This document shows, piece by piece, positions 3,706-59,500 of a DNA stretch of 64,000 bases. How positions within the stretch are numbered: position 1 is the first letter of the stretch; the number at the start of each line of letters is the position of its first letter. The notes beneath the pieces are model-generated. The model saw only the letters and a program-made list of their open reading frames with translations. It searched no databases and had not been told where the DNA came from. Position numbers and translations under genes: made by a program. The stretch comes from Magnolia sinica (lineage: Eukaryota > Streptophyta > Magnoliopsida > Magnoliales > Magnoliaceae). The DNA lies in contig NC_080577.1 in the NCBI RefSeq assembly GCF_029962835.1, forward strand, positions 3,472,001 to 3,536,000. Direction: 5' to 3'.

Positions 3706-5446
3706 AAGTATCAGATAAAGGTTAAGAACGTTTGGGAATTCAGGGAAGATGTTAGGGTCGAAGTTTGATATACATAAATTCGATGGAAAAAATAATTTCA
3801 GTTTGTGGCAGCGAAAGGTTAAGGATATTCTAGTATCATAAGGGTTGAGCAAGGCGTTGTTGGAGACTAAACCTGAGAAAATGTCGGAAAATGACTAGAG
3901 TAAACTCGGGAAAAAGGCTATAAGCATCATCCGTCTGTGTCTATCAAATGAAGTCATGTAAATCAGCCCTAGATATGTGGAAGAAACTAGAAGACCTATA
4001 CATGGCGACGTCCCTTACCAACAAGTTTTTTGTGAAGAAACAAGTTTACGAGCTACAGATGAAGGAAGGATCAAATCTTCTGAAGCATATGAACTCGTTT
4101 ACGAAGATAGTTGGCGAGTTGTTAAGGCTCGAAGAGACAAGCAAGGATTAAGATAAAGCGTTGCTACTTCTAGCATCGCTACACACATCATAGGACCATC
4201 TCATTACTACTTTGTTACATAGGAAGAGTACTTCGAAGACAGAGGAAATCGCTGCAATTCTCGTGTTTAACAAGATGAGGAAGAAATCAAGCAATGAGGA
4301 TTCTCAGGAGGGACTAGTTGCCAAAGAAGGTCAGGGACATGAGAGATCTGTGGAACGATCTCGGTCTGATTGGAAGAAGAAGTCTAGATTAAAATCAAAG
4401 GCTAAGGACGGATGCTTCTACTATGGTGTGAAGGGGCACTTCAAGAGAGACTAAAAGAAACGAAAGAATGACATAGAAAGCAAGAATAAAAAGAACATGA
4501 GCGAATCGGCTAGCGGCTAGCGCAGCACAAGAGAGCCCAGAAGGAGACATCATCTTGGTCTCCTCAGGCACAAGTCATCTTACAGGTACGTGGATACTCG
4601 ATTCAGGATGTTTGTATCATATGTGCCCGAATAAGACTTGGTTCGATACCTACAAGTCCTATGATGGTGGGAGTGTTCTGATGGAGAACAATGTTGCATA
4701 CAAGGCCATCGAAATTGGGACCATCAAGGTAAGGATGTTCAATAGAGTCATACGAACTCTAAGTGATGTCAGACATGTCTCGGATCTGAAGAAGAACTTG
4801 ATATCATTGGGCGTTCTAGATACAAATGGGTGCACATTCACCACATATGGCAATGTAATCAAGGTCACCAAAGGTGCAATAGTGTTAACGAATGGGCATA
4901 AGATGGCGAATTTGTATAAGTTGGTTGAGAGCATGGTTATAATAAGGCTGCTACCACCTCACCCACAGAATCCAACACAGATGACACTAATCTGTAGCAT
5001 ATGCGGCTGGGGCATGATGGAACTCCATAAACGAAAACTATTGAAGAGAGTTAAGGCATGCAAGATGGATTTCTGCGAGCTTTACATCTATGGGAAGTAA
5101 TGTAGGGTAAGGTTCAAGACCGTTACACATACTAGCAGCAGAGTGCTCGATTACATACATTCCGATATATGGGGGCCAGTGACGGTACCGTCTAAGAGAG
5201 GAGTATGATACTTTGTGAGCTTCATGGATGATTAGTCAAAGAAGGTTTAGGTCTACTTCTTAAAGCAGAAGTCTGAGGTGTTTGCCAAGTTCAAGGAATG
5301 GAATGCGAAAGTAGAGAAACAAACCGAGAAATGTGTTAAGTGTCTCAGAATAGATAACGGTACAGAGTACAGAAAGGCGGTATTTATGGAATTATGCAAG
5401 AAACAAAGCATCACAAGGCACTTCTTAACTCAAGGGACACCACAGC

Positions 5447-6013
5447 TAGAGGTGGGCATCGAGTTGAGTTTGACCAAGTTAGGTCCAACTTGACTCGATC
5501 CAGTATTGTCAAAACCCTGATCCGAACTCAATCCGACTCGGGACCGAGTCCAGCGGGCCTGACTCGATCCGAACTAAATCTTGGCTAGGCTGACCCGAAC
5601 CGAGTCCGACTCGATCAGAGATACCGAGTCAGATCGAGTTGGCTATGGTTTGGATCGGGTCAAAAGCTCAATGTTTTCTGTGGTGTGGTTCATTTAAGCT
5701 TTGGATCTGTTTCATTTTTTGGGCTCAAACCCTATAATTATCTAGTAAAATGGATGGACAGAGTGGATAAAATACATAAATTATGGTGGGCCCCAAAGAG
5801 TTTACTCAGTACGCAATCCGCATCTATATTCCACGTTTACTATTTCCTGATGGAAGTGTATCAAACATCACACGCAACCAAACTATCAAACAAGAAATGA
5901 CCCCCTTGCGTGGTACGACTAAGACCTCTCTACTTCTGTAAAAAGAGTAAACTAGGAATGGAGAACCAGTGCCAGTTTTGGCTCCCAAAGAAGAAGCGTT
6001 TCTGCAGGAATGC

Positions 6014-6057
<44 letters not shown>

Positions 6058-6378
6058 TAATCTCCAATCCTCCACACCCACATACTTTGGCGTGGTCCAT
6101 CTGCAGGTTCTATGGAAATCACAAGCCCGAATGCACCTCTCTAATTTTGTATATATAGTACCCGATTACTGGTCCAATTCGGGTTTCGGATCGGATCGAG
6201 TCCAGCTGGATCGAATTTCGGATTGAGTCAGATCGGGTTACTATGTAACCCGAACTCGACTCGGTTGGGATTCGGATTCGCGTGGGTCTACTCAATCCGA
6301 ACCCGACTCTGGCATTCAGTTCGGGTCGAGTTGGACGAGTCGAATCTGTCGGATCGAGTTGGGTCCTGCCCAGCTCTA
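5447..6378. mobile_element. hAT-like non-autonomous element nested in the Copia integrase
   Basis: The 932-bp insertion starts TAGAGGTGGGCATCGAG and ends TGCCCAGCTCTA, giving imperfect inverted ends. It splits the Copia integrase region: recognisable integrase sequence stops just before it and resumes just after. The 8-bp flanks ACCACAGC and CCCACAAT agree at only five positions, so the target duplication is degraded. The inside has repeated CCGAACTCGATCCGACTC-type motifs, a half copy of the Mutator-like MITE core near 5690-5810, and a (CT)n tract at about 6020-6050. It encodes nothing. Confidence 0.7.
6020..6050. repeat. (CT)n microsatellite
   Basis: About 15 CT units in the nested hAT-like element. 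Confidence 0.9.
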
Positions 6379-8705
6379 CCCACAATGGAACGGAGTGGCA
6401 AAGAGGATGAACAAATTCTATTAGAGAGGGTGAGAAGTATGTAGTTGCATGCAGGGCTACCTAAAAACTTGTGGGCAGAAGCAGTTAACATGGCATGCTT
6501 TATTGTGAATCAGTTACCATCTACAGCGTTGGACTTCAAAGTTGCGGAAGAAGTCTAAGCAGGCAAGGACATTGATTGCTCAGGGTTGAGGATATTCGGG
6601 TGTCCAGCATACGTTCACATGCAGAGTAAACAAATGACGAAGTTGGATCCCAAATCTAAAAAGTGCATCTTTATCGAGCATGAGAAAGGTGTTAAGGATT
6701 TTCTCAAAAGGTAGTCATTAACAGAGATGTCATCTTCGATTAGGCATCTATGTAGAAGGCCAACAAGGACGTTCAAGAAAAGTCGGAAACACATGGTGAG
6801 GTACTGAGATTGTCAGTGCGGGTGGAGCTACTTGAGCCCGTTATTGAAGGTGAAATTCAATAAGAGCAAGAAACTAACTGAAATAATCAGCGGGATACAC
6901 AAGAGAATAGAACCAGGAACGGGAAGTAACAAACCATTAGAGGTCCAATTCGATATGAGTTCGAGGACATGTTTTCTTTCGCATTGTTCACAGATGGTGA
7001 AGATCCCTACACCTTTCAAGAGGCTAAGTCTAAAACAGATGACAACAAATGAATGTTGGCCATGGCAAAGGAGATGAAATCTCTAAACACAAATTAGACA
7101 TGGAGTTGATAAAACTTTCAAAACGTCAGAGGGCTATAGGGTGCAAGTGGGTGTTCAAAAATAATGAAGCGCTAATAGAAAAAGATTACGAAAAGTTCGA
7201 GGCATGGCTTGTAGCAAAAGGGTACTCGCAAACAGAGGGAATAGATTATAACGAAGTTTCTCTCCAATTGTGAAACATACGTCAATCAGGGTGCTATTGG
7301 CTGGTAGCGGAATCCAATTTAGAATTGGAACAGCTTGATGTAAAGACGGCATCCTTCATGGTAACTTAGAGGAAGTTATTTACATGAAGTAGCCAGGAGG
7401 ATTCGATGAGCTTGGTGAGGAAGATCACATGTGAAGGCTGAATAAGTCATTGTATTGACTAAAGTCCTCTCTAAGGCAGTGGTACAAGCGGTTCGATTAC
7501 TACATGGTGGAGATTGTTCATATCAGATGTGATTACGATTGCTACATATATTACAAGGTGTGTAAGAACATGTCCTACATTCTACCGATGCTATATGCTG
7601 ATAACATGTTAATTGTTGTGAAGGACAAGAAGGAAATACTCTTACTCAAGTCTCTATTAAGCATGGAGGTTGATATGAAGGATTTAGGCGCTGCGAAGAA
7701 GATCCTTGGTATGAATATTCAAAGAGACTGAGAGTCTAGGAAGCTGTAGCTCTCAAAGGGGATATGTGCAGACGGTGCTAAGGAGGTTCCACATGGAAGG
7801 TGCTTGCTAAGCCAATTAGCACGCCTCTAGCAAGTCATTTGAAGTTGTCAGCCAAGTGATGTTCAAGCACGGAAGATGAGATTTCAGACATGTCACGGGT
7901 TTCATACGCGAGTGCAGTGGGGAGTCTCATATATGTGATGGTTTACACAAGGCCGGATATCTCACAGGCAATTAGCATGATCAACAGATATATAACAAAC
8001 ATGGAAAAGGAGCATTTGAATGTAATTAAGTGAATTCTCAGGTATCTCAAGGGCACAGTCGGCGCTAGAATCATGTTCGAGGGACATGGAGCTTCAAATG
8101 AAGTTGTAGGCTACATGAATGCGGATTATGCAGGATATCTAGACAACAGAAGGTCTGCTACGGGATATGTTTTCACATTTGCAGGCGGACCGATATGTTG
8201 GGGATATATACAACAATCTACAATAGTGTGCCTACAACAGAGGCAGAATATATGGCTATGACAGAGGTGTCAAAAGATACATTATAGTTGAAGGGTCTGA
8301 TTGGAGAACTCGGGTACGCAAGAAGCGATTCAATTGCATTGCAATAGTCAAAGCGCTATCCATCTAGCATTGAATCAAGTGTATCACGCGAGAACCAAGC
8401 ACATCGATATAAGGTTCCACAAGATACGGAAACTCGTTGCTTTGGGAGAGATTCAGTTTCAGAAGATTCACACAGACAAAGATGTCGCGGACATGTTGAC
8501 GAAGTCGGTGACCACAGACAAGTTCAAGCACTGCCTCGGCTTAATCAATCTCACCAGTTTTTGATAAGATTGGGGACAACCTTGCACAGCTGCGGGTGGA
8601 GCTGCGTTTCAGGTGGAGGATGTAGGGAGTGGTCTACGCTCAAGGTGGAGGCTAGCAGGGGAGATCTTCAGGGTGACTTGGTAGAATACAAGTTAAGGTG
8701 GAGAT

Positions 8706-22140: not shown

Positions 22141-22668
22141 CGAACGCGGATCTCCTGCGAAAGCCTTTCGCAGGAAGTTCCTGCGCAAGGATGCTGGGTG
22201 GGGCCACCACCGTTGTTTTTGTGAAATATATCCTGTTCATCCATTTTGCAAGATAATTTTAAGACAAGCTACAAAAAACGAAGTGGATCCAAGACTCAAG
22301 TGGGCCACACAAGAGGAAACAGTAGGGATTCAGTTAGAACCGTTGAAACATTCTTATGACCATAAAAGCTTTGTTTCAGGCTAAATTTTTTGTATTTTTA
22401 CTTTATCCTTGTGTTAATAACCTTATAAACGGTTTGGATGGCATATAAACATCAAGGTGAAGTCCAAGAAGCTTTCAACGGTAGATATTTCTTTCCCTCT
22501 CGTGTGGTCCACTTTAGTTTTGGATCCACTTCGTTTTTGGTCGATTTTCCTAAAATGAGCTCACCAAACGGATGAACGGAGTACATTTCCCAAAAACATG
22601 GTGGTGGGCCCCACATAACATTCTTGCGCAAGAACTTCCTGCGAAAGGCTTTAGCAGGAAATCCGCGT
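22141..22668. mobile_element. Mutator-like MITE, CCTGCGAAAGG family, with 10-bp target duplication
   Basis: 528 bp flanked by perfect direct repeats CCCAAAGCAT (22131-22140 and 22669-22678). The inverted ends are over 60 bp long and contain ACGCGGAT, then a sub-terminal hairpin TTCCTGCGAAAG/CTTTCGCAGGAA. Towards the centre they change into the shared core (GGGGCCCACCAC, CCTAAAATGAGCTC). Confidence 0.75.
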
Positions 22669-22792
22669 CCCAAAGCATTCACGTATTTCTCCCCAGGCCC
22701 CACACAGCATTCTTGTGCAGGAACTTCCTGCGAAAGTCTTTCGCAGGAAATCCGCGTCCCAAAGCATCCACGTATTTCTCCCCACTTTTTAT
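22609..22792. repeat. 92-bp tandem duplication of a MITE end and its flank
   Basis: Two adjacent copies each contain GCCCCACA, AGGAACTTCCTGCGAAAG or close variants, AAATCCGCGTCCCAAAGCAT and CACGTATTTCTCCCC. The unit spans both the right terminus of the MITE and the flanking host sequence. Confidence 0.75.
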
Positions 22793-23252: not shown

Positions 23253-23354
23253 TACGCCGCCGCTGTATGAAATAAATCCCTCCCCTCCCAACCCCCCTTC
23301 TCCCCGTCTCCTCCATTCTAGAAGGGTTTTCAGGAAGAGAAAAGGAAAGGAGTA

Positions 23355-23717
23355 ATGGCGAACAATCTCCACCGTCAATTTTCATCGCTCATTCAAATCT
23401 GCAGAAGGAATCTAGGGTTAGATTTCGCTAGATCTTGCCCTCGTCATCTACCTACGAGAAGTATATTTCTCAGTCCTTCGCGACAGCAGCAACAAGAAAG
23501 CCCAAAAGCAGCGGTAGCAGAAGAAGAGATCTCTCATCCTCTCCCAACGGCGGAAGAAAATTCTGAAAGCTCCAGCAACCCAGACGCTGTAAGCGAGGGA
23601 GAAGAATATGATGGCATTTTCGTAAATAAGGAGACTGGCGAGATCGGCGGGCCGAGAGGGCCCGAGCCGACCCGGTACGGCGACTGGGAGCGAGGCGGCC
23701 GCTGCTCGGATTTTTAG
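23355..23717 (+). CDS. SDHAF4: Succinate dehydrogenase assembly factor 4, mitochondrial
   Basis: A single-exon gene of 120 residues. It starts [19 protein letters not shown], an Arg-rich, acid-poor leader typical of mitochondrial import. A low-complexity Gln/Glu/Ser middle follows. The C-terminal 35 or so residues carry the conserved SDHAF4 (DUF1674) block: [19 protein letters not shown], then [15 protein letters not shown] at the very end. In yeast and animals SDHAF4 (Sdh8) binds the flavinylated SDHA subunit and helps it join SDHB during complex II assembly in the matrix; the plant orthologue is expected to do the same. The ATG is the first in frame with the leader, and the context GTAATGGCG is favourable. 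The 5' leader is very CT-rich (CCCTCCCCTCCCAACCCCCC). MITE-derived sequence lies close on both sides. Confidence 0.95.
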
Positions 23718-24359: not shown

Positions 24360-24677
24360 AAGTTGTTCTCTTTCCTGTTGAGATTGCCATGTAGGTGAAT
24401 TTAGATTATGTATCGATGGGCTAAACTCATATGTTTTGCACCATTTAAAAAATGGCAATGACTCATCTTCGCACTGGAGCATTCAAATTGTGGATGAAGC
24501 ATATCTCTAAAATTACACTGATTCAGAAATCCTAACCATCTAATTACTAGTTATCAAATGGATGGGTAGAAGTAAAATAGTGAGTGGACCAAATTTGAAG
24601 GGAAAATCAGACGGTTAAATGTTACCTTCTTAGTGTTTAGGTTCTGCTCTGTCCACAATTGGGTCAGTGATTTGGAT
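24360..24677. other. Intergenic, no gene recognised
   Basis: AT-rich sequence between the MITE and the large inverted repeat. Nothing further recognised. Confidence 0.5.
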
Positions 24678-25183
24678 TGTCACTCCCCAAAATTCGGTAC
24701 CCAAGTTGCCAAGCCTAAACTTGAATTCTAGGACCGTGAGTTGTATTTAAACAAAATATACATAGCAACACACAAAATTTTCATGCATTTTCAAGGCAAA
24801 CGGAGCCACTAAGAGGGGATTAACTAATATCATTTCAATTAATAATGTTTCATTAAATTATCATCAAGATTAAAATAAAATACATTGAATTATAATTAAT
24901 CTTCAAATAAACAAAAAAAAAAGTTTTCAATCTTGCCCAACTGGTTATTCATATACTAACACTGCAAAACAATCTATACGGGTGTGAACGCGACGGCTCG
25001 TAGGGTCACATCCTTATCAAAATTGAAAATTCTACGATAATATCAATATAACTCAATAACATAAATATGATCAATGATAAGTATTGAATTGAAATTTTAC
25101 ATGGCAATAATAGCGATTTGGTATCCATAATTTCAAAATGATATAAGACAATCATCCAAGATCTTTTTTAATTCAATTCAGGG

Positions 25184-25560
25184 TAGAGCACCCATATATG
25201 TTGATACTTTTAGGGAATGACCATCGGCAGAGCACCGGTGTCGATCCTTTTAGGTAATGACCCTTGGCTGAGCACCGGTGAATAAACTTTGAGGGTAATA
25301 CCCAGGGCAGAGCACCTGTGTGCATATCTTTTAAGGAATCATCTAGGGTGGGACACCCGTGTGTGCATATCTCTTAGGGAATCACCCCAAGGCAGAGCAC
25401 CCATGTGTGCATATCTTTTAGGGAATAACCCAGAGCAGAGCATTCGTGCTAATCCTTTCGGAAATGACCCTGGGCAGAACACCCGTACCGTGCTAATCCT
25501 TTCGGGAATGACCTTGGGCAAGACACCCATAAAAATACAATGATCCTTTTAAGGCAAAAC
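25184..25560. repeat. Minisatellite, about 42-bp unit, left arm
   Basis: About nine degenerate units of the form GGCAGAGCACCCGTGTG, ATATCTTTTAGGGAATGACC. Unit starts are spaced 36-46 bp apart. It is mirrored in the right arm at about 26985-27345. Confidence 0.85.
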
Positions 25561-26984
25561 ACTCATAACTTAAATACACAATAATCATCAAATAATTTTA
25601 TTCTTCAATATATAATAGTAAACAATTAAATTCCATTTACAAAATGTAATAATGACGAAATAATTTCAATATGTAACACATGAAAATAATAATAAATTCA
25701 ATCCACAACATGTAATTATAATGAATTAGATTCAATATACACACGTAATAAGAGTTAAACAAATCTAATCTACAACATATAAATACAATTAAAAAAATTC
25801 ATTTTACATGATGGTACATTAAGATAAGAATGTAAATTCACATGCTAACATAAGGTTATATTGTAATCGCAGGGTTTTCAACCAGGAAGATCACCTACCT
25901 GGTTTGATGCATAAATGGCCGATCTATTGCTAGAAGTACGTGTGTATGCTCTGAGGTCGGTTTTAGTTATATAGAATTCAACTCAGTTACACTTAAGTGA
26001 CTCGGTAACTTTTCTGATGTGAATCGATTAGATCCACACGCAAAACCATACTTATTAATCACACATACATTAGCTTTAAAGTTCTAGATAATATGAACTC
26101 AAATTTGATAAAAAGTATATGTTGACTCACTGAGTCAACGATATAATCAAAACTACTATTATGGTTTATTTCCGATTCAATAACTGGACAAGGGACTTAC
26201 CTGGTACTTGACGAATTTGGAATGTCCAAATGAGCCTTGAAGACAATCAATTTAGAAGAATCCTTCGACTGATTGAGTCGACCCGCTAATCCTTTAAACT
26301 GATTGTTTTCAAGGCTCATTTGGACATTCCACATTCATCGGGTATCAGGTAAGTCCCTTGTCCAGTCATTGAATCAAAAATAAACCATAGCAGTAGTTTT
26401 GATTGTATCAACTCAATGAGTTGACTTAGTAAGTCAATATGTATTTTTTTATCGAATTTGAGTTCATATTATCCAAAACTTCAAAGCTAATGGATGTGTG
26501 ATCAATAAGTATGGTTTTGCATGTAGATATAATTGATTCACGTCAGAAAAGTTACCGAGTCACTTAAGTATAATCGAGTTGAAATACGTATAACTAAAAC
26601 TGACCTTAGAGCATACACACGTACTTATAGCGATAGATCAACCATTTGTGCATCAAACTAGGTAGGTAATCTTCTCGGTTGAAAACCCTACGATTACAAT
26701 ATAACATTGTGTTAGCATGTGAATTTACATTTTTGTCTCAGTGTATCATGTAAAACGAATTTCTTTAATTATATTTATATGTTGTAGATTGAATTTGTTT
26801 AACTCTTATTACGTGTGTATATTGAATCTAATTCATTATAATTATATATTGTAGATTGAATTTATCATTATTTTCATGTGTTATAGATTGAAATTATTTT
26901 GTCATTATTACATTTTGTAAGTGGAATTTAGTTGTTTACTGTTATATATTGGAGAATGAAATTATTTGATGATTATTTGTATTT

Positions 26985-27345
26985 AAGTTATGAGTGCTCT
27001 GCCCTAAAAGGATCATTATATTTTTATGGGTGCCTTGCCCATGGTCATTCCCGAAATGATCGGCATGGTACGGGTGTTCTACCCAGGTTCATTTTCGAAA
27101 GGATCAGCACAAGTGCTCTTCCTTGGGTGATTCTTTAAAAGATATGCACACACAAGTGCTCCGGTGCTCTGCCCTGGGTGATTCCCTAAAAGATATGCAC
27201 ATGGGTGCTCTGTCGTAGGTATTACCATGAAAGTTTATTCACATGTGCTCTGCCGAGGGTTATTACCTAAAAGAACCAACATTAGTGCTCTGTCGAGGGT
27301 CATTCCCTAAAAGGATCAGCACACGGGTGCTCTGCCCTGAATTGA
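26985..27345. repeat. Minisatellite, about 42-bp unit, right arm
   Basis: Inverted counterpart of the left-arm array: units read GGGTGCTCTGCCCTGGGTG, ATTCCCTAAAAGATATGCAC. It has about eight or nine units. Confidence 0.85.
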
Positions 27346-27864
27346 ACCAAAAAGGATCTTGTATGATTGTCTTATATTATTTTGTTATTATGAATACCAA
27401 ATCGTTATTATTGCCATGTAAAATTTCAATTCAATACTTGTCATTGAATGTTTATGTTATTGATATTATCGTAAAATTTTCAATTTTGGGAAGGATGTGA
27501 CCTTACGAGTCGTCACGCCCACGCCTGCATAGATTGTTTTGCAGTGTTTGTATATGAAGAACCAATTGGGCAAGATTGAAGACTTTTCCTATTGTTTATT
27601 TGAAGATTAATTACAATTCAATGTATTTTATTTTAATGTAATTAAGACTTGATGATAATTTAATGAAACATTTGTTAATTGAAATGATATTAGTTTATCC
27701 CCTCTTAGTGGCTCTGTTTGCCTTGAAAATTTGTGGTTTGCTGTATATATTCTGTTTAAATACAACTCATGGTCCTGAAATTTCGGTTTGGGCCTAACCA
27801 ACTTGGTTACCGAATTTCAGGGCCTGACAGATGGTCTGGATTGCCTTAATTACAACCAAGCCAT

Positions 27865-28307
27865 TGTTAAAGGTTTGTTTGGATAAATGTTGAATTAGTC
27901 TTGGTCGTCCTATCCTATAGGAAGTCTGTTGAAATGGGTTAGTGTATCCCATTTCTTTAGGAGTACTCCAATCGTGGAACTAGTTGGTTCATATTTCTCT
28001 GGTTAGTTTGTTTATGCTTTTCTATTTAAGATGTAATTAGATCTTTAAGATGTAATCAGATCTTTAAATTAATAAATTGAATTTAATAAATTGAATTCAA
28101 TTTATTAATTTAAAGTTATTAATTTAAAGATCTGATTACATCTTAAATAAAAAATCATAAACAAACTAACCAGAGAAATAGGAACCAACTAGTTCCATGA
28201 TTGGAGTACTCCTAAAGAAATGGGATACACTAACCTATTTCAACAGACTTCCTATAGAATAGGACAACCAAGACTTAATCAACATTTATCCAAACAAACC
28301 TTTAACA
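27865..28307. mobile_element. 443-bp hairpin MITE
   Basis: The ends TGTTAAAGGTTTGTTTGGAT and their exact complement at the right border form arms of about 210 bp around an AT-rich centre made of TTAATTTAAAG/AATTCAATTTATTAA palindromes. The arms are over 90% identical by eye. The 5-bp flanks GCCAT and GTCAT may be a degraded duplication. Superfamily not certain. Confidence 0.75.
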
Positions 28308-31300
28308 GTCATATCATGTGTATGTTTGAAGAGTCGCTGCCATTTCTTAATTTGTAGCAGAAGTAACATAGGAGTATAGCTTATATCAATATCTGACCTC
28401 TGTTTCCCATTTTGCATTGAAGGATCTGATTTCTCAAATTTCAACATTTTGTTATTTGTGCAATGTCTCACGATGTGGATGATTATGTGGTTTGTGGAAT
28501 ACAATCTGTCATAATTTTAGTTACAATTCTTGAAATCATCAATTTGTATAGTTTGTAAAAAATAAAATAAAAAATTGCTTCTTTTTTTTTCCCGAGGAAC
28601 AATCACATGCAACCATTGCATGTTACACAGTGTTTTCCCTGCTAACTTGCTAACGTATTACAAGTGCAGGACATCAGAGATGTGCCAAAGGTGGGAACTG
28701 TCATGAAGATGAGCTGGCTAAAAAATGAGGTTGATCCACCCTTCAGGTGGGTCACGCCTGCATAATGAGTGGAAGGCTGAGAGTTTGACTCATTGTACAG
28801 CTGTCACCCACCTGATAAGTGGACCAGCTTGATTTTCATCCCATGGGATCTTTATGACGCTTAAATGTCCAACACAAATGACCCACCAGAGGGAGGAATG
28901 GTGTCATGTGGGAGCTGAGAATGTCAACTTCTACATGATTGTTCATTTTTTGATGCAACTGTTTCTATGATGGTTGCTTGTAATTACATGCTAGCATCAA
29001 TGACACATTTGCAGGAAGAATGGCGTCACATGCTAAGCTTAGCATGTCATGTTGTATGTGGCCGTTTGTTTTGGAATGCGTTCATTCTCCGCTATATATA
29101 GTTCTCTATTTTGTTTTTTTATTGTAGCTTTGATGTTTTGGTTCAGGTCCTTCATGTTTCGTTTTTCATTTATAGGAGATCAGAACCATCAAGACATTTG
29201 TCTTGACACAAGGAGTGGTTGGGATAATCTGTATTTTTATGATAGAAACAGGCTACTCTAAACAGTCATCCACAATGTTCATTTTATAGTTTATATTCCT
29301 TTCCTGGACTCTGTTTGTGCTTGTCATCTAAAATGTTGCACAGGCAGTGCATTCCGGGCTCCAGTCCACTGTTATTTCATCATTAAATCCCTAAAACATA
29401 AAGATTTCACATTTATAAAATTGCACGCATACACCCCATAGTTCGACATGCCAATATGTACCATAATGCCCACCTTCTTGAGATCGAGGTGTTATTACAG
29501 CTACGCCATTGTCATAACTAACCTTTTAAATGCACAGTAGTATAGAGTATTGATTCATAACTAACCTTTTAAATGCATAGTAGTATAGCGTATCGATTTC
29601 AAAGATTGTACACCTATATTTCAACACCAATGTTTAAAACTAGACTAGATGTCAAACCGACTGGGTTTAACCATTCCAGCCCAAGGTCTAAAGCATCATT
29701 GGAAACCAGTATGTATCACCCAATACACACCGGTCCATGAAACATACAGTCCATTGGCACACCATATGGTGGTGAATAATACCATATGCCAAAACTGGTT
29801 TTTAAACCATGTTCAGCATCTCTTGAAGTACCATAAATTAAATACAAGAAAAGTCAAGTCAAACATCCAAATTCTTTCTCGTAGTGGATAACCACGGTTG
29901 GCATTTGAATGGAGACCATGCTTAAAGTATGCGGACTGTTTTTGTATCCAGTTCCAGTTCAACCCCATCAGAACATCCGGTCCAGTTTTTAAATTGTTGC
30001 TCAATCCATGTTTGGTACATTAACTAAAGAGAAATGATCACATAAAATGATGTATGGCGTACAAAAGGGGTTCTACACCACCCAAATTCAAAGGAGGTGT
30101 GGAATCTTCTTTGGATTTGAAGAGGGAAGATCCTCTACTATGCGAGAATTTCTCATAAATAGAAGTAGCAAAGTGCAGCAGGTGTGCAAGTAGATGACCC
30201 GAATCAAATGCATCTGGTTTCATTCATGTTCTTACTTGTCTTACTTTAATCTTTTTTCTTTTTTTTTAAAAAATTCATTTACTATCAATCTATCATACCC
30301 TTGTCTTCTTTTTTTCTTCTTCTTCTTCTTCTTTTCAGGAGAAACCAACTGAGCTCTTGTATTCATCATCCAGCTTGTATAACACCTGGCATAGTCACGA
30401 TGGTTGAAGTCCTTCAAATTGTATTGGCTTGTAGGTGAAGAATACATCAGCTTACATGACTTTTCAACCTATAATTTGGGTGGAGAAGGTAATATCCAAT
30501 GCACTTGCAAGAGTGAAATATACACAATAAAAACACGGGGATTCATACTGCTAGCTGTTCTGACAACATTCCTTTTACAACAGTTCTGTGATAGAAAACA
30601 TCACATTTTCAAGTTTGATTTTTGCATGTTATACTTCTCTTCTTAGTTACTATGGTGTACTATATATTTTTTATTTTCAACATTGTCATGTATGGTCGAT
30701 CTGGTCCCTTTTTCACAGTTCTTCACAAGTCTTTTTGGTCATTTATGGGGGATCCGTGTATCAGCACCCATTCCTGTGAACTCTCACAAAACTGGACACA
30801 TTGAGCAATGGATGGTTTGTAATTCAGAATGAACACTATCCTGTGTTGGGAAATCATAGTGAGATGACAATCTTAACCATCTAAATGGTGATCTGCAAAT
30901 GGACAGTGGAAAAGACTGGTGATTCCTGCACCACTTGTCAGATTTTCAGTGCACGCCGGCTGTGATGAGTCGAGATCTTTTCCACACCATGTCTGTAGAC
31001 AGTAATCCTGTTCTGCAACTTGTGCACCATGTTCTATGTATATTTGTGGTGACCAGTGCAACAATCACCCCTATGTTATTGGGATCTATGCTAACACAGC
31101 TGTTTGATGGATGCAACATTTATGCCTTTTACCAGTTTCTAGCATGTTTAAAGTATCATTTGAAACCAGTTTATATTTTAGCCAGATATGTACCAGTATT
31201 ACCCATGAACGATTATACCAAATATGTACTAGTATTGTCATTGAACGATTGTCTGTACCAGCCCTGTAGCCCCAAAAAACGGTCCCATGGCCATAGGCTG

Positions 31301-42300: not shown

Positions 42301-43919
42301 TTCACATCCTCATCGTTCTCATCATCATCGGTATCACTTTCAACCTCCTTTTCCTTTCCCAACCTTAAAAAACCAAACAAGCAACCATCAAAAATCACAG
42401 CCAAAACAAACACAAAAACGAAAAGACCAACAAACCCAAAGAAAAGCATGGAATATAGAATGCTCTATCAGAATCAGAGGTGTTTAATTCAGATCAACAT
42501 TTTGTACAGCTGGGGCCCACATTTCAATGGCCCAGACTGTTCGTCAGATTAGCCACGCTGTGGATGGGCAATGCTGCAACCAAGCCATCCAATGGAGCAT
42601 CCTTGCCATCTAATGCATGTCCTGCAAATTGAAGTTTCTTTTTTTTTTTTTCCTCATCTGAATATTGCCTGCAAATCAATGGTTAATGGTGTGTTTGGTT
42701 GCTCCAAATATCACAAAAATTCATGATCATGATTTTTTTTAGGGATACATGATCTTGATTAGTCAAGTCTAATTTGGTGCAAATTTAATGAAATTTCATG
42801 CTATGGTGCAATCAAATGGCCACTTTAAAAAAGAGTGAAATCTCCATATGCAACGGGAAGAAGTTCCTTGATTGGACAGCTGATACGTTCAATGGATTGA
42901 ACAAAATTTTCTATCCACAGCCCATCAAACAATCCAAACCATCTGGTTGTAGAATTTTTCTCGTTGCATATGGATTGTTAGGTGTTTTTCCTTTTCCCTG
43001 TCAATTTCCAGGCCAACAATCAAACAACCAGGATACATGCAAGGGAGCCTTTCCAAAGCATCACCTATCCACGATGGGCATCATCCAAATGCGTGGACAG
43101 AAAGGTGGGCCCGCCTGTACAAAATACTGGCATGAGCGAAAGTGCCGGTAAATTCAGGTCAATCGGTGCATAATTCACCCAAAACAAATCAAGTAACCCT
43201 AAAAACTTTAAAAGAGTAAGGGGAAATAAACAAAAACAAAACGAATCAAGAAACCCTAACCCTAAATCTTACCAAATCTTCACGCGCTTCCCTGCAGGGC
43301 CAGATGACGGCAACACCTTCCGCTTCCCGTTCTCGTACAACCCAAATGACTCCCTCACTGATGCCTCCACGACCTCCATGCACTTGGCAGAATCCTCCCT
43401 ATACTTCTCTATATACTTCTCCGTGGCAGGGCTGCCGCCGCCAGTCCCCGCTTTCTTAGCGGCCTTCGCCTTCTTCTTCAGGAAATCCTCGGCGATCTTC
43501 TCCATTTTCCGCTCCTCGGCGTCCGCCTTCCATTCCTCCAGCTTCTTCTCAGCGTTGACATGCCGCAGCCGGCGCCCGCTCATGTCCCTGCAAGCATCAA
43601 AATTGTTCGTTTTCTTCTGCCCGGCTTTCGTCGCAGCGCCGCGGAGGAGAGATCCGAAGCCGCCCTTGCCGCCGCGGAGGCGGAGGAGGAGGGCGCAGGA
43701 CGGGAAAAGGCTATCGGGTCCTGAGGCGGAGAGGAGGGTGGCATCGGAGATTTCACGGGTGCCAGAGACGAGGCGGAGGGAGTGGGGTGGAGGTATTCGG
43801 GTGGTGCTGCGGAGTAGGGTTTGTTTGAGGGCGGAGCCGGAGATGGTTGGGGTGGGGAGGTGGAGGCATTGGGTCCGTCCGTCTAGGTGCTTGATGAATA
43901 TCTGGTAGATATCAGCCAT
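33140..43919 (-). CDS. SDE2: SDE2 homologue: ubiquitin-like N-terminus, C-terminal SAP-like motif
   Basis: Three coding exons on the minus strand: 43273-43919, 41859-42363 and 33140-33304. The splice sites are GT-AG, phases agree, and the product is 438 residues. Residues 1-84 are the ubiquitin-like domain ([20 protein letters not shown]...) ending LRLRGGKGG, the conserved processing site after the second Gly of RGG. A basic block with [18 protein letters not shown] follows, then a Lys/Glu coiled-coil-like stretch. Exon 2 is acidic and Ser/Glu/Gly-rich. Exon 3 holds the conserved C-terminal motif [42 protein letters not shown]. In fission yeast, processed Sde2 enters the spliceosome and aids excision of particular introns; in humans SDE2 acts at stressed replication forks. 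The plant role is inferred. Intron 2 is 8.55 kb and separates the last 54 residues from the rest. Confidence 0.95.
33946..34075. repeat. Tandem duplication of a 64-bp unit
   Basis: CCATAGATTCCACTTTG, ATTTCAAAGTAGCATTTTGG and TATGATGATTC occur twice in a row with few differences. Confidence 0.75.
34393..34838. mobile_element. hAT-like short element
   Basis: The left end TAGGAGTGACAAGAGG is imperfectly inverted at the right end (TTTTGCCACCTCCA). The inside is rich in AACCCAAACCCAACCCAT and its complement. Flanking octamers TTGGCTGC and GTGATTGC agree at five positions, so the target duplication is uncertain. Confidence 0.5.
35225..35750 (+). mobile_element. L1-clade LINE fragment, upstream of the RT domain
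   Basis: Plus-strand sequence translates in pieces to the typical L1 spacer between endonuclease and [20 protein letters not shown] and later PTLDNLHF. Stops and frameshifts are frequent. It continues at 36787 after two insertions and lies antisense to SDE2. Confidence 0.65.
35752..36120 (-). mobile_element. L1-clade LINE 3' end, inserted antisense
   Basis: Read on the minus strand it resembles the last part of an L1 ORF2 and 3' tail, finishing in TTTTTAATAAAAGTTTTTAG and an A-rich end near 35752. It interrupts the plus-strand LINE. Similarity is judged by eye and is weak. Confidence 0.4.
36121..36778. mobile_element. hAT-like element, CAATGTTCGAAGTAT ends
   Basis: 658 bp. The left end CAATGTTCGAAGTATTGG and the inverted right end CATTGTTCAGAGTATCC match well. 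The flanks CTAGTACC and CCGATACC agree at five of eight. The inside is full of GATATCGATATATC-like motifs and shares AAACATGGGGAAAACGGTGG with the larger relative at 38841-41687. Confidence 0.62.
36787..37650 (+). mobile_element. L1-clade LINE fragment, reverse transcriptase
   Basis: Continuation of the LINE at 35225. Visible RT motifs in several frames are [12 protein letters not shown] (about 37243-37280), [11 protein letters not shown] and [17 protein letters not shown] (37430-37490), typical of L1 RT domains 2-4. It has many stops and frameshifts, and the YADD-type motif is degraded. Confidence 0.7.
37854..38290 (+). repeat. Possible solo LTR (fossil)
   Basis: A region starting TGTAGAAGATATGATTG has a TATA-like CTATAAAGGG and a polyadenylation-type CTCAATAAAGTTATTTC about 110 bp later, as in LTRs. 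No target duplication or internal domain could be tied to it, so the call is tentative. Confidence 0.3.
38841..41687. mobile_element. Composite hAT-like element with perfect 8-bp target duplication
   Basis: 2847 bp. It begins CAGTGTTCAAAATATCGG and ends in the inverted complement of CGGTGTTCCTAATATCG. The octamer AGTGCATC flanks it exactly on both sides (38833-38840 and 41688-41695), the hAT hallmark. Its outer parts share sequence with the 658-bp relative at 36121-36778 (GGGAAAATGGTTGAATTTT). The middle, about 39200-41170, consists of four Mutator-like MITE copies inserted one after another. No transposase is encoded. Confidence 0.8.
39200..41170. mobile_element. Four consecutive Mutator-like MITE copies
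   Basis: Approximate extents are 39200-39700, 39700-40130, 40190-40610 and 40705-41170. Each has the quasi-palindromic core: ATCCACACCGTCCATCC, then TCATTTTAGG, AAGTGGACCACACCAC and the inverted counterparts (GTGTGGTCCACTTGAG, CCTAAAATGATC, GGATGGACGG). The last copy ends GGACCCACAGAACTTGCTAACG, which recurs at 46840-46861. Confidence 0.65.
42364..43272 (-). other. SDE2 intron 1
   Basis: 909 bp, donor GTAAGA and acceptor TTAAG. It contains a hairpin-type short repeat at about 42688-42825 related to the 58-bp MITE in UBR7. No other exon is seen. Confidence 0.85.
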
Positions 43920-44210
43920 TGATCGATAGATCGAGAATTCGACAGACGAATGACTGAATTGATGGGAATGGAGAGGAGAACGAGCGGTTTTGCGCGCCTT
44001 TCCGTTTTTTTTTTCTTTTTCAGGTCGGAGTGAGTTGAAGTCGGTGGGAGTTTTTAAGGAACCGCAGCCAGCGTAACTCGCGCTACGCTACTTTCTCGGT
44101 TACTTTCGCTAATCGAGAGCCACGTAACGGATATTTCATGCGATCCCATCGCATGCTGCTTGATATTGTCACCTGCGGACGCGGATAGCGTCCTACCCCC
44201 GCCCGGACAG
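43920..44210 (-). promoter_or_regulatory. SDE2 5' flank and presumed promoter
   Basis: Upstream of the ATG on the minus strand are a CT-rich leader, GGCGCGCAAAACC, a purine-rich AAAAAGAAAAAAAAAA stretch and a weak TATA-like TTAAAAAC near 44050. The promoter must lie within about 300 bp because a MITE starts at about 44187. Inferred from position. Confidence 0.35.
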
Positions 44211-44692: not shown

Positions 44693-45222
44693 GGAAACGA
44701 ATTGGCTACTCCACCTGCCACCGACCAATGGCTGGTGATCGGTGCTCTGTGGGCCCCACCATGATGTATGTGTTTCATCCATACCATCCATCTATTTTTT
44801 TAGATCATTTTATGACATGAGACCAAAAATTCATTATATTCCACTCTCATGTGGACCACGTTACAGGAAACAGTGTTGAATGAACGTCAACCATAGAAAA
44901 CTTTTTGGGCTATAAAAGTTTTCGGTCAAGCTGATATTTTCCTTCTCCCCTTCATCTGGGTCTGTATGTCCTAATCAATAGATTGTATGTCAAGTAAAAA
45001 GTACAGTGGGCCTTAAGAGGATTTTAATGATGGATATCCAATCACTATTGTTTTTCTGTGGTGTGGTCCACCTAAGATTTATATTCATCTAAGCTTTGGG
45101 AACAATACCTAAAATGATCTGTAAAAAATTGGATAAACGAAATGGATGAAACACATACATCATGTTGGAGCCCACAGACCACCAGCCACCAGCTGGTGGT
45201 AGGGAGTAGCCAAGCCATTTCC
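44693..45222. mobile_element. Mutator-like MITE, GGAAACGA family, perfect 9-bp target duplication
   Basis: 530 bp flanked by CCCAAAAAT at 44684-44692 and 45223-45231. The left end GGAAACGAATTGGCTACTCC matches the inverted right end GGAAATGGCTTGGCTACTCC at 17 of 20 positions. It holds the full core GGGCCCCACCATGATGTATG and its inverted half. Best-defined member of the family in the window. Confidence 0.85.
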
Positions 45223-45318
45223 CCCAAAAATCACGGTGACCAAAATTCGCCACCAAAAGCAACGGATGCGAATTTGGTACTACTCCACCAATACGGAAGC
45301 AGATTGGGTGGTGTTACA

Positions 45319-45715
45319 GAGCTGGGCATCGGACCGAGTCGGACCGGATTGTGTCCTACTCGACCAGGACCGAAATATGGAGGGCCGAACCCGAACCCGA
45401 TCAGATCCGAAGCCGAGTCGGGGTCATCTGACCCGAACAGATCCTAATCCCTCCTGGCCTGAGTCGATCCGAGTCCATTTCGGTCAAGACAACCGAGTCG
45501 GATCAGATTTGTCAGAGGTCGGATTGTCGTTCTTTTCAACGGTGTGAAAATCATTATTCATACTGTTTCGTATGATGTGATCTACTTAATTATTAGAAAT
45601 ATTTAAAATTTAGCATTAATCCTTAAAATCATCTGAAAAAACTAATGGACGGTTTGGATAAACCAAAAAATTCAAGATGGGCCACATAGTTTACTCGGCT
45701 AACACGGTACGAAAT
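45319..45715. mobile_element. hAT-like element related to the one in the Copia element
   Basis: It begins ACAGAGCTGGGCATCGGACC, like the 5447-6378 element, and shares its GAGTCGG/CCGACTC repeats and the following half MITE (ATGGACGGTTTGGATAAACC). The right end is not defined. Confidence 0.45.
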
Positions 45716-45833
45716 CTACTTTTAATTTTACAAGTACTCTTATATTGGCTATAACTATAGGCTATAGCTCTTGCTGTCCTGTCTTAGAGGATATAGCTCC
45801 TACCAGGCTAGTTACCAGCTATAAAGCTACTCT

Positions 45834-46870
45834 ATGTACAGTGCGAACGGACTAGCTACTCCGGTCGATGATCTGTGGGCCCCACCAAGATGTACGTGTT
45901 TCATCCATACCGTTCATCAATTTTTACAGATCATTTTAGGGCTTGGTACAAAAAATGATAGGGATAAAAATCTTAAATGGGCCATACCACAAGATAAATA
46001 TAATGAAGGGATATTCACAATTAAAATCCTCGTAAGGCCCACTGTACTGCTTATTTGACATACAATCTGTTGATTTGGTCATAAAGACCCAGATGAAGGG
46101 AAAAAATAAATATCAGCTTGATCCAAAACTTTTATGGCTACCAAAACATTTTTAACGGTCAAAATTCATTCAACACTGTTTCCTGTAATGTGGTCCACTT
46201 GATATTGAGATATAATTCATTTTTTTTATCATATCATAAAATGATATATAAAAATAGATGAACGGCATGGATGACACACATACATCATGGTGGGCCCCAC
46301 AGAGCACCGACGACTAGCCATACAAAGTTTCTTCGAGAAGCTATTGCTATTGTAACCGGTGTAAAGCTTCTTCAAGAAGCTATCTACCAAGCTTCTCTAG
46401 GAATCAAAGGAGATCAAAGCTACATGGCCCACAGTTATGTATTTAGTAAATCTATACCATTCATCTGTTTTTAGAGTTCATTTTAGAGCACTATCCAAAA
46501 AATGAATCATATCCGAAGATCATCTGGACCACACCATAAATAAAAGCGGAGATAATGATTTTCACCGTTGAACAATTTGTATGGCCCACCATAGCGTTTA
46601 TTTTCATCCAATCTGTTCGTAAGGTCACAAAGACCTCAGTGAAGAGGAAAAACAAATTTCATATTGATCCAAAACCCCTGTGAACCCAATAAGGGTTTCA
46701 ATGGTGGACGTTCAATCCCCCACTACTTTCTGTAGTGTAGTCCACTTGATAGTTAGATATGTCTTAATTTTGGTCTCAAGCGTTAATACGATATTGCCAA
46801 ATGAATAGACAGTTTGGATATAATACATACCTCGTAATCGGACCCACAGAGCTTGCTAACGTTACACCGG
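45834..46870. mobile_element. Two further Mutator-like MITE copies
   Basis: The first (about 45846-46325) begins GCGAACGGACTAGCTACTCC. The second (about 46405-46870) begins ATCAAAGGAGATCAAAGC and ends CAGAGCTTGCTAACG, the same ends as the copy at 40705-41170. Both have the quasi-palindromic core. Confidence 0.55.
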
Positions 46871-56500: not shown

Positions 56501-59500
56501 ACAAAAAACTAAAGTAGATCTAGGTTTTAGGTGGACCACACCACAAGAAACAATGGTCATTAAATACCCACAATTAAAAACATCCCAAGGTCCACCATAA
56601 TGTTTATTTGCCATCTAAACTGTTCTCACAGTTTTCATTGCCTGATGGGAATTCTTCCGACAACGTTTGTTGGTCTTCCTTTATGCATTGGGAAACCCCA
56701 AAAATGCTTATGGGACAAAGTTATCGAGAGATTTGAGAAATACCTGGCCAGATGGAAGTGCAGATATTTATCCCTGGGAGGTCGTCTCACTTTGATAAAA
56801 TCAGCATTGTCTAACCTCCCCTTGTATTTCATGTCCTTATTCAAATGTCTAGCGTCGATCTTGGTAACTCTCGAAAGATTAAGAAGAGATTTCTTGTGGC
56901 ATGGAAAGTATGACAAGAAATTCCATTTGGTTGAATGGAAGGAGGTATGCAAGCAGTTTAAAGAAGGTGGTGCAAGGGTCAGAGATCTAAAAATTATGAA
57001 CAGGGCCCTTCCAGGCAAATGGACGGGGAGGCTGGGAATAGAAAATGGGACTTTGCGGAACTCGCTTATCAAAAGCAAGTATGGTAGTTCAGAGGGAGGT
57101 TGGTGGCCTAAAGATTCCTCTGCTTACAAAGCTTCGGCTCTTTGGAGAGGTATTCTATCCTCAAAGAGGGAGGTTCTAAAGGGGATTGACATTGCAATTG
57201 GTAAAGGTAAAAAACTCGCTTCTGGAAAGATATATGGGTGGGGGACTCATCTCTTAAAGAAGACTTCCCAAATATGTATCGACTCATTCTGAACCTTTCC
57301 ATCCTGGTGGCTGACTGCTACACTAAAGTTGGGGACGAAAATGTCTGAAACACCTTTTGCAGAAGAAATCTTCATGACTGGGAGATCGACGAATTTGTGG
57401 CCCTTCAACGTCGCATCACCACTTGTAAGCTAGGTCAGACGTGTGAAGATAGACTAGTTTGGAGGTGCGATAGATCAATTCCGTTCTCGGTCAAATCTCT
57501 TTACATATTTATAGATACAAACATCTCAGCGGTGGAAAAGTTCATGACAGGGAAAGTGTGGAAATTCAAAGTCCCCCCAAAAGTTTCGGTTTTCGCTTGG
57601 CTAGTTGGAAAGAAGAAAGTGTTGACTGTTGACAAGTTGAGGAAGAGGGGAATGCTAATCACAAACATCTGTCTCTGCTACATGGCCGAGGAGGAATCGA
57701 TGGATCACCTATTCGTTCATTGTCCCTACACTGCTCGGGTGTGGACAACTATCCTGAGTTTCTTCAACATTTCCTGGTGTCTCCCGAACTCTTCTGATGG
57801 TCTGTTAAAAGCCTGGTATGGGCCTAATATAGGAAAACAAAGAACCACGATATGGAGAATGTGCTTGTTGGCTGGTTGGTGGTCAGTACGGGAAGAAAGA
57901 AATGGGAGATGCTTCAATGGCATTTCAAAACTGCCGGGATTAGCAATCCAGAAAGTTCAGCAATACTTAGCAGAGTGGGCTTCTAATTTGGTTAATATAA
58001 AGGATTGTAATTTGTTTTACTTCGGAGGTCTTCCCTCTCACTAGCTTAGCGGGAGGATCCTCTCTTTTTGTACTTCGTTTTCTATCAATATAGTTCCTGT
58101 TATCTTTTTTTTTTATAAAAAGGTCACATCAACTTGGATGAAGGGAAAACACAAATATCAACTTAATCCAAAACTTTTCTGGCCCACAAAATGTTCTTAA
58201 TGGTCAACAACTATTGTTTCTGGTGGTATGGTCAATGGTCCACCTGAGATTAGGATTTGTTTCATTTTTTGACCCATACCTTAAAATGAGCTAGCAAAAC
58301 AGATGGATGGTGCATATATACAACACATTTATTGAGGTGGGCCCCATGGCTAGGTCCCACCCACATCGCTGGTTAGGGGCGACTTGCGAAAGCCTTTGAT
58401 AGGAACTTCTTGCGACAGGAAGCTAGGTGGGGCCGCGAGGGCCACCGTGATGTTTGTTAGAAATCCACCCCATTGGTTTGATTTTTCTAATGATGTTAGG
58501 ACATGGGCCAAAAAAAGAGGCATATCCAAAACTCAAGTTGGCTGCATGACAGGAAAAAAGTGGGTAGTTAAATGGCTATTGTTGAAACCACCCTGGGCTC
58601 CATTGTGATGTTTATATGCCATCTAAACCATTCATAAGGTCATCTTTTTTGGGATCAACTAAAAACACAAAAATATTAGCCTGGTTGGATATACTTATGT
58701 GGCCCCACAAATGTTTCAACGATGGACATTCAATCATCACTATTTTCTATTGTTTGGCCACTTGAGTTTTGGATTTGCCTCATTTTTGGGCCCATCTCCT
58801 AACATGGTTTGGCAAAACGGATGGATGGAGTGGATATCTCACAAACATCATGATGAGCCCCATAGTTTCCTGTTGTAGGATGTTCGTGTCGCGTGTGCAA
58901 AACTTTAGGGTTGTGTAAGTCTAAGCGACAAGAACCAACGATTTCGGTGGGACCTCGATAGTAGGGCCCACCTCAATGTATGTATTGTATATCTACGCCA
59001 TCCATATGGTTTGCTAGCTTATTTTAGGGAATGGTCCCAAAAATGAAGCAAACACAAATTTCAGGTGGACCACATGGTCCACATTGTAGGAAACAATGAT
59101 TATTGACCATTCGAAACCTTTTGTGGGACACAAAAGTTTTGGATCAAGCTAATATTTGTTTTTTCCTTTCATTCAGGTCTGTGTAACCGTATCAACAGGT
59201 TGGGTGGTCAATAAACATTATGGTGGACCCTAAGAAGTTTTCAATGACAGGCGTTCAATGACCATTATTTCTTGTTGTGTGGTGCACCTGAAATTTGTAT
59301 GTGCTTCATTTTTGAGACCATGCCCTAAAATAAGCTGGCAAAACATATGAACGGTGTGGATTGATGTGATGGTTGGATGGCTGTGATGGTTGGTTGGATG
59401 GATGGATAGATTAGATGGTTCAATGGATTGGCACGAGTAGAGGGGATGACTTGTGAACAATATTGCCACCATGGTAAGCAGTGCCAAACAGGTGTATATT

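Follow-up and report, generated by a model that had tools for sequence, protein, structure and literature searches.

A palindrome in the Magnolia sinica genome that is probably an inverted pair of LTRs

The palindrome at positions 24678-27829 of the window (the whole 64,000-nucleotide stretch of Magnolia sinica DNA analysed here, contig NC_080577.1, positions 3,472,001 to 3,536,000) very probably consists of two LTRs in inverted orientation that belong to a single LTR-retrotransposon family. The two would have their 3' (U5) ends outside and, having lost their 5' parts, would meet head to head in U3, at a microhomology of 3 bp. The minisatellites carried by the arms would be native to the LTR and older than the pair. 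A long near-spacerless palindrome with mirrored minisatellites can derive from LTRs and mimic a foldback transposon when a single copy is read.

Structure and divergence of the arms

BLAST pairs the interval with its own inverse (E=0), which confirms the existence and the coordinates of the palindrome as given in a preliminary description made from the sequence alone. The features of the palindrome and of its immediate flanks are listed below.

24673..24677: TGGAT, adjoining the left end of the palindrome; possible target-site duplication
24678..26256, - strand: left arm, probable LTR truncated on its 5' (U3) side, with the 3' end (TGACA on the - strand) at the outer border
25207..25545: ~42-bp minisatellite of the left LTR, 8 full units
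25595..25812: second, weaker ~33-34-bp tandem array of the left LTR, borders approximate
26254..26256: AGA, 3-bp microhomology at the LTR-LTR join
26254..27829, + strand: right arm, probable LTR truncated on its 5' (U3) side, with the 3' end (TGACA) at the outer border
26265..26281: short palindrome TCGACT-GATTG-AGTCGA
26745..26962: second, weaker ~33-34-bp tandem array of the right LTR, borders approximate
27011..27313: ~42-bp minisatellite of the right LTR, 7 full units
27830..27836: GATGGTC, between the right LTR end and TGGAT
27837..27841: TGGAT again, 7 bp away from the end of the right LTR; possible target-site duplication, expected by chance at about 1%

Similarity between the arms ends abruptly at the outer borders, with 29 of 40 bases matching inside and 13 of 40 outside. 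The spacer measures 30 bp with the repeat finder (between 26259 and 26290), close to the earlier estimate of under about 40 bp, and about 43 bp in LTR terms.

A roughly nine-unit, 42-bp array had been assigned to each arm. The mirrored arrays are indeed present, with 8 full units in the left arm and 7 in the right, plus partial flanking units. The units (40-51 bp) were delimited by eye. Each of the seven right units has a left unit as its reciprocal best partner, and the order is kept (L1-R1, L2-R2, L3-R3, L5-R4, L6-R5, L7-R6, L8-R7), L4 being unpaired. Partner units are 78-91% identical, as compared with a mean of 68% (maximum 84%) within an arm. The array is therefore older than the separation of the arms. 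The weaker ~33-34-bp array adjoins the ~42-bp array in both arms. A search of the prokaryote and viral collections with the minisatellite pattern returned 0 matches.

In the MAFFT alignment, the arms are 87.7% identical over 1,528 ungapped columns. The 188 differences comprise 150 transitions and 38 transversions, to which 13 gap events are added. The K2P distance is 0.138, and 0.093 without CG and CHG sites. The arms, about 12% diverged, therefore do not match closely, and the recent origin that had been proposed for them finds no support. Using substitution rates of 1.3e-8 and 2e-9, the K2P of 0.138 translates into an age of about 5 Myr to about 34 Myr, respectively, so that the palindrome, though genuine, is old rather than recent.

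Ongoing arm-to-arm conversion, the other explanation put forward earlier, is not supported either. Outside the minisatellite array (n=1,093) differences are evenly spread (variance p=0.39, longest run p=0.36), and thus no conversion tract is seen. Evenness over the whole arm is borderline (variance p=0.08, longest run p=0.17). A test counting gap columns showed strong heterogeneity of arm identity, which was disregarded because the gaps produced it.

Transitions affect 33 of 81 CG sites, 33 of 82 CHG sites and 84 of 439 CHH sites, about equally in both arms (Fisher p versus CHH: 7e-5 for CG and 8e-5 for CHG). Transversions at the same classes of sites number 4, 3 and 26. In four other inverted repeats of the window, where counts are small, CHG is not significantly raised and CG is raised only in a MITE (3 sites, p=0.02). 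The pair has decayed fastest at its CG and CHG sites, and this excess of transitions would fit long CG and CHG methylation of the palindrome, as on silenced transposons.

Copies of the arms in the genome

The host genome (1.84 Gb, 127 contigs; the window lies on contig C5) was searched with each arm. The left arm gave at least 61 matches (40 scored of 818 first-look candidates) and the right arm at least 49 (40 scored of 785). Thirty-eight stretches, L009 to L046, were fetched, of which 37 are loci with arm matches (5-10 kb each). In none of these 37 loci do arm matches occur on both strands, and the palindromic unit does not recur among them. With a longer query, L009 gave a 45-bp match on the opposite strand, which corresponds to the short central palindrome. 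No inverted repeat was found in L046.

Two loci carry arm-like sequence as a direct pair, 1.6 kb and 86% alike in L010, at least 1.7 kb and 92% alike in L011. A 12-base primer-site motif, which we take to be that of a tRNA primer, adjoins the outer end TGACA with 1 error in 3 of 22 copy ends (L010, L011 and L018). A fourth end, having only a 3-error match, was taken as chance. The three ends with a primer site were excluded from a solo-LTR test, carried out on the remaining 19. Six of these 19 end in TTACA (TGTAA on the LTR strand) at 1.7-3.0 kb, have an exact 5-bp duplication and are interpreted as solo LTRs. Some exact CA+5-mer match was obtained for 12 of the 19 ends, which makes the test noisy unless TTACA is also required. 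One more TTACA match, the seventh, falls in the internal region of L011 and was disregarded. The paired LTRs of L010 start with TGTAAC, consistent with the TTACA end of the solo LTRs.

The inner part of the palindrome is shared by L009 and L046, both solo-LTR-like by eye. L009 measures about 2.9 kb and has TAAAT on both sides if its end changed from TTACA to TTATA; L046 measures 2.8 kb with a flank duplication of 4/5. Taken together, the direct pairs, the primer site, the 5-bp duplications and the single orientation of the copies argue that the arms are LTRs whose 3' ends point outward. By comparison with the ~2.9-kb solo LTR of L009, each LTR of the palindrome would have lost a 5' part of about 1.3 kb.

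A Pfam scan of 10 of the 51 listed internal ORFs of L010 and L011 gave no significant match and no pol domain (best E=0.25, below the cut-off). Since none of the scanned ORFs has a pol domain, the family looks non-autonomous or decayed. Plant solo LTRs and non-autonomous LTR retrotransposons, presumably those called LARD-like, are comparable in their LTR ends, in their 5-bp duplications, in the primer site seen here in relatives and in the lack of a coding domain among the ORFs scanned. Unlike them, the palindrome has two LTRs placed head to head, both cut on the U3 side.

The internal regions of L010 (2859-6032) and L011 (1694-6781) contain His/Asn/Thr-rich ORF fragments that, by eye, look like degenerate tandem repeats. 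The outer part of the L009 solo LTR (3935-6836) groups with L034 (support 0.71), then with L011, while its inner part matches the palindrome. This mismatch suggests recombination between LTR subfamilies. The 42-bp array of L009 also contains an 81-bp duplication, 95% identical.

Junction and origin of the pair

The microhomology AGA was located by reading both LTRs through the centre against the single-orientation copy L009. Followed from its outer border towards the middle, the right LTR remains collinear with L009 as far as AGGATTC.TCT, a stretch that takes in the apparent centre and the short palindrome. Its left counterpart departs from L009 at TTTAGA, about 43 bp earlier, so that the right LTR extends about 43 bp further than the left one. 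The short palindrome is native to the LTR, L009 having TCGACT-TGATG-AGTCGA. A 5-bp centre of the large palindrome was dropped because this central short palindrome belongs to the LTR.

One event is the most likely origin of the pair, although far from an assured one. Over most of its length, the inner 376 bp is found at 4 places in the genome, two of which are these arms, plus one 117-bp piece (4 first-look candidates, all scored). The rarity of this inner variant and the equivalence of the two breakpoints, which fall within about 43 bp of each other in a ~2.9-kb LTR, make a chance meeting of two copies unlikely. Arms were further compared in four blocks and in quartets with 12 relatives of our own choice. 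The arms are nearest each other in the outer block (0.115 versus 0.134 for the next relative) and in the middle block (0.090 versus 0.106). In the array block, the left arm is as near to L014 (0.160) as to the right arm (0.164). In the inner block, the right arm is slightly nearer to L009 (0.107; 36/343) than to the left arm (0.125; 42/340). Quartets favour the two arms together in 55 of 66 and 36 of 43 cases. A state private to both arms occurs in only 1 of 856 columns, and FastTree gives weak support to their grouping (0.574) in a tree of 39 sequences, the two arms among them, built on just the outer 529 bp.

Two separate insertions of LTRs of the same family, in opposite orientation, are a real though lesser possibility. 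The inner parts would then have been lost in one deletion, perhaps guided by an LTR-LTR hairpin, and the arms would still be LTRs. A 3-bp microhomology is as in end joining, and in the inner block the arms are nearly as distant from each other as from L009. The absence of a target duplication shared by the outer flanks also favours two insertions: no 5-bp duplication abutting both ends was found (TGGAT on the left versus GATGG on the right). Against this reading, an inner variant seen at four places over most of its length, among first-look candidates, has two of them here, and the breakpoints are equivalent; neighbourhood by chance is unlikely.

The flanks were examined beyond the two TGGAT motifs. 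The possible 9-bp flank repeat that had been noted was not recovered. No such repeat adjoins the ends, where the strict 9-mers agree in 4 of 9 positions, and 9-mers like the off-register pair TTTGGATTG/TCTGGATTG (at most 1 mismatch) occur in 63 of 1,000 random 35-bp pairs. The local score of the two 300-bp flanks was equalled or passed by 14 of 277 random pairs. The left flank gave no match in the 5 kb on the right side, and an inverted duplication, made in situ, of an LTR together with its flank was rejected on this ground. The left flank matches dispersed repeats in L020, L028 and L045, which by our reading are placed outside the LTRs of these loci.

For the single event, the favoured form is snap-back reverse transcription. 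Minus-strand cDNA would halt in U3, fold back at AGA/TCT beside the native 6-bp hairpin and prime itself. Copying would then proceed back across U5 and on into the primer tRNA, with GATGGTC as its trace. This last step is a conjecture, based on a loose resemblance of GATGGTC to GATTGGTATC, with which the primer site following the 5' LTR of L011 begins. The snap-back product would enter the chromosome as an LTR-LTR palindrome, with TGGAT as its 5-bp duplication. That the palindrome is a natural fossil of this whole series, from the U3 stop to integration, is proposed tentatively and is in itself rather unlikely. If the single-event origin is true, the palindrome records aberrant retrotransposon cDNA making palindromes, which are possible seeds of hairpin RNA. 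Among the papers retrieved on inverted-LTR palindromes, no title or abstract opening describes one.

Hairpin, foldback and artefact readings

The very long duplex that a transcript was expected to form is borne out by folding. The predicted MFE is -2045 kcal/mol with 1,407 arm-to-arm pairs, as compared with -668 to -684 kcal/mol for 5 mononucleotide shuffles and -914 kcal/mol for a control stretch of the window. Hairpin siRNAs are thus possible if the palindrome is transcribed. A stronger reading, in which the palindrome is an active hairpin-siRNA locus silencing a retrotransposon family in the manner of Mu killer of maize, is improbable. Besides the stability of the predicted fold, it can draw on unbroken helices of at least 21 bp, G-U allowed, that cover 735 (+) and 716 (-) of about 1,620 columns. 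The palindrome also lies about 960 bp downstream of a + strand ORF that encodes a DUF1674 domain. This ORF (23322-23717) is a likely gene, which we take to be SDHAF4. However, the arms decay evenly and symmetrically, and a search of the window with Rfam found no RNA family. Excerpts of PMC3440606 describe Mu killer as an inverted duplication of transposon sequence, for which a read-through hairpin RNA of about 4 kb is proposed. The likeness stops at the inverted duplication of transposon sequence: Mu killer comes from the MuDR DNA transposon, whereas the palindrome here would consist of LTRs and its hairpin is only predicted.

The reading initially favoured was a DNA transposon of foldback or Mutator type, non-autonomous and mobilised in trans, whose long inverted repeats contain sub-repeats. 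SoFT of tomato, a foldback transposon, reportedly lacks a transposase and has tandem repeats inside its long inverted arms. The same is described for Tetris of Drosophila virilis in excerpts of PMC4079207, and FARE of Arabidopsis is cited as a foldback transposon there and in PMC4486113. The palindrome resembles such foldback elements, Tetris among them, in having sub-repeats arranged in tandem within long arms and hardly any middle part. The earlier statement that it carries no recognisable transposase also holds, for a Pfam scan of 10 arm ORFs, out of 33 listed for 24678-28700, gave no match. A gene captured in the arms was rejected on the same result. Across the window, no transposase was found in the 28 scanned of 35 ORFs of at least 110 aa.

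Membership of this class was dropped after the genome search with one arm, where the copies present the arm as a single-orientation LTR, an outcome that the preliminary description had itself named as refuting its reading. We now consider this membership very improbable. The arm is found alone or in direct pairs, with a primer site and 5-bp duplications, and never on both strands of a fetched locus. Unlike Tetris, FARE and SoFT, the palindrome has no 8-9-bp duplication (nor one of up to 11 bp), does not recur among the fetched loci and has LTRs as arms. MuTAnT, a Mutator-like element of Medicago, shares the foldback shape according to excerpts of PMC4486113, but has 9-nt duplications, which are lacking here. 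By title, no paper related to the end motif of the arms was found. An assembly artefact deserves almost no credence: inverted chimeric reads can give palindromes, but would leave near-identical arms, not arms with 188 differences in 1,528 columns and 13 gaps besides.

Several further elements are present in the window. A second palindrome (27865-28307) lies 35 bp to the right of the first. It has 184-bp arms, 95% complementary, with ends AAAGGTTTGTTTGG and TTA-like flanking bases, and looks like a MITE, presumably of the type named Tourist. An inverted repeat at 44728-46321 has arms of about 454 bp, 81% identical, about 690 bp apart. At 22144-22757, inverted repeats of 176 and 62 bp overlap an 89-bp tandem duplication. 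Retrotransposon pieces comprise a Pol_BBD domain at 4501-5100 and a zf-RVT domain at 57349-58044. Just downstream of a zf-RVT-domain ORF, a near-spacerless palindrome of about 1.05 kb (58132-59178) is only 69% identical between its arms. A likely gene with an SDE2 domain is located at 43269-44087.
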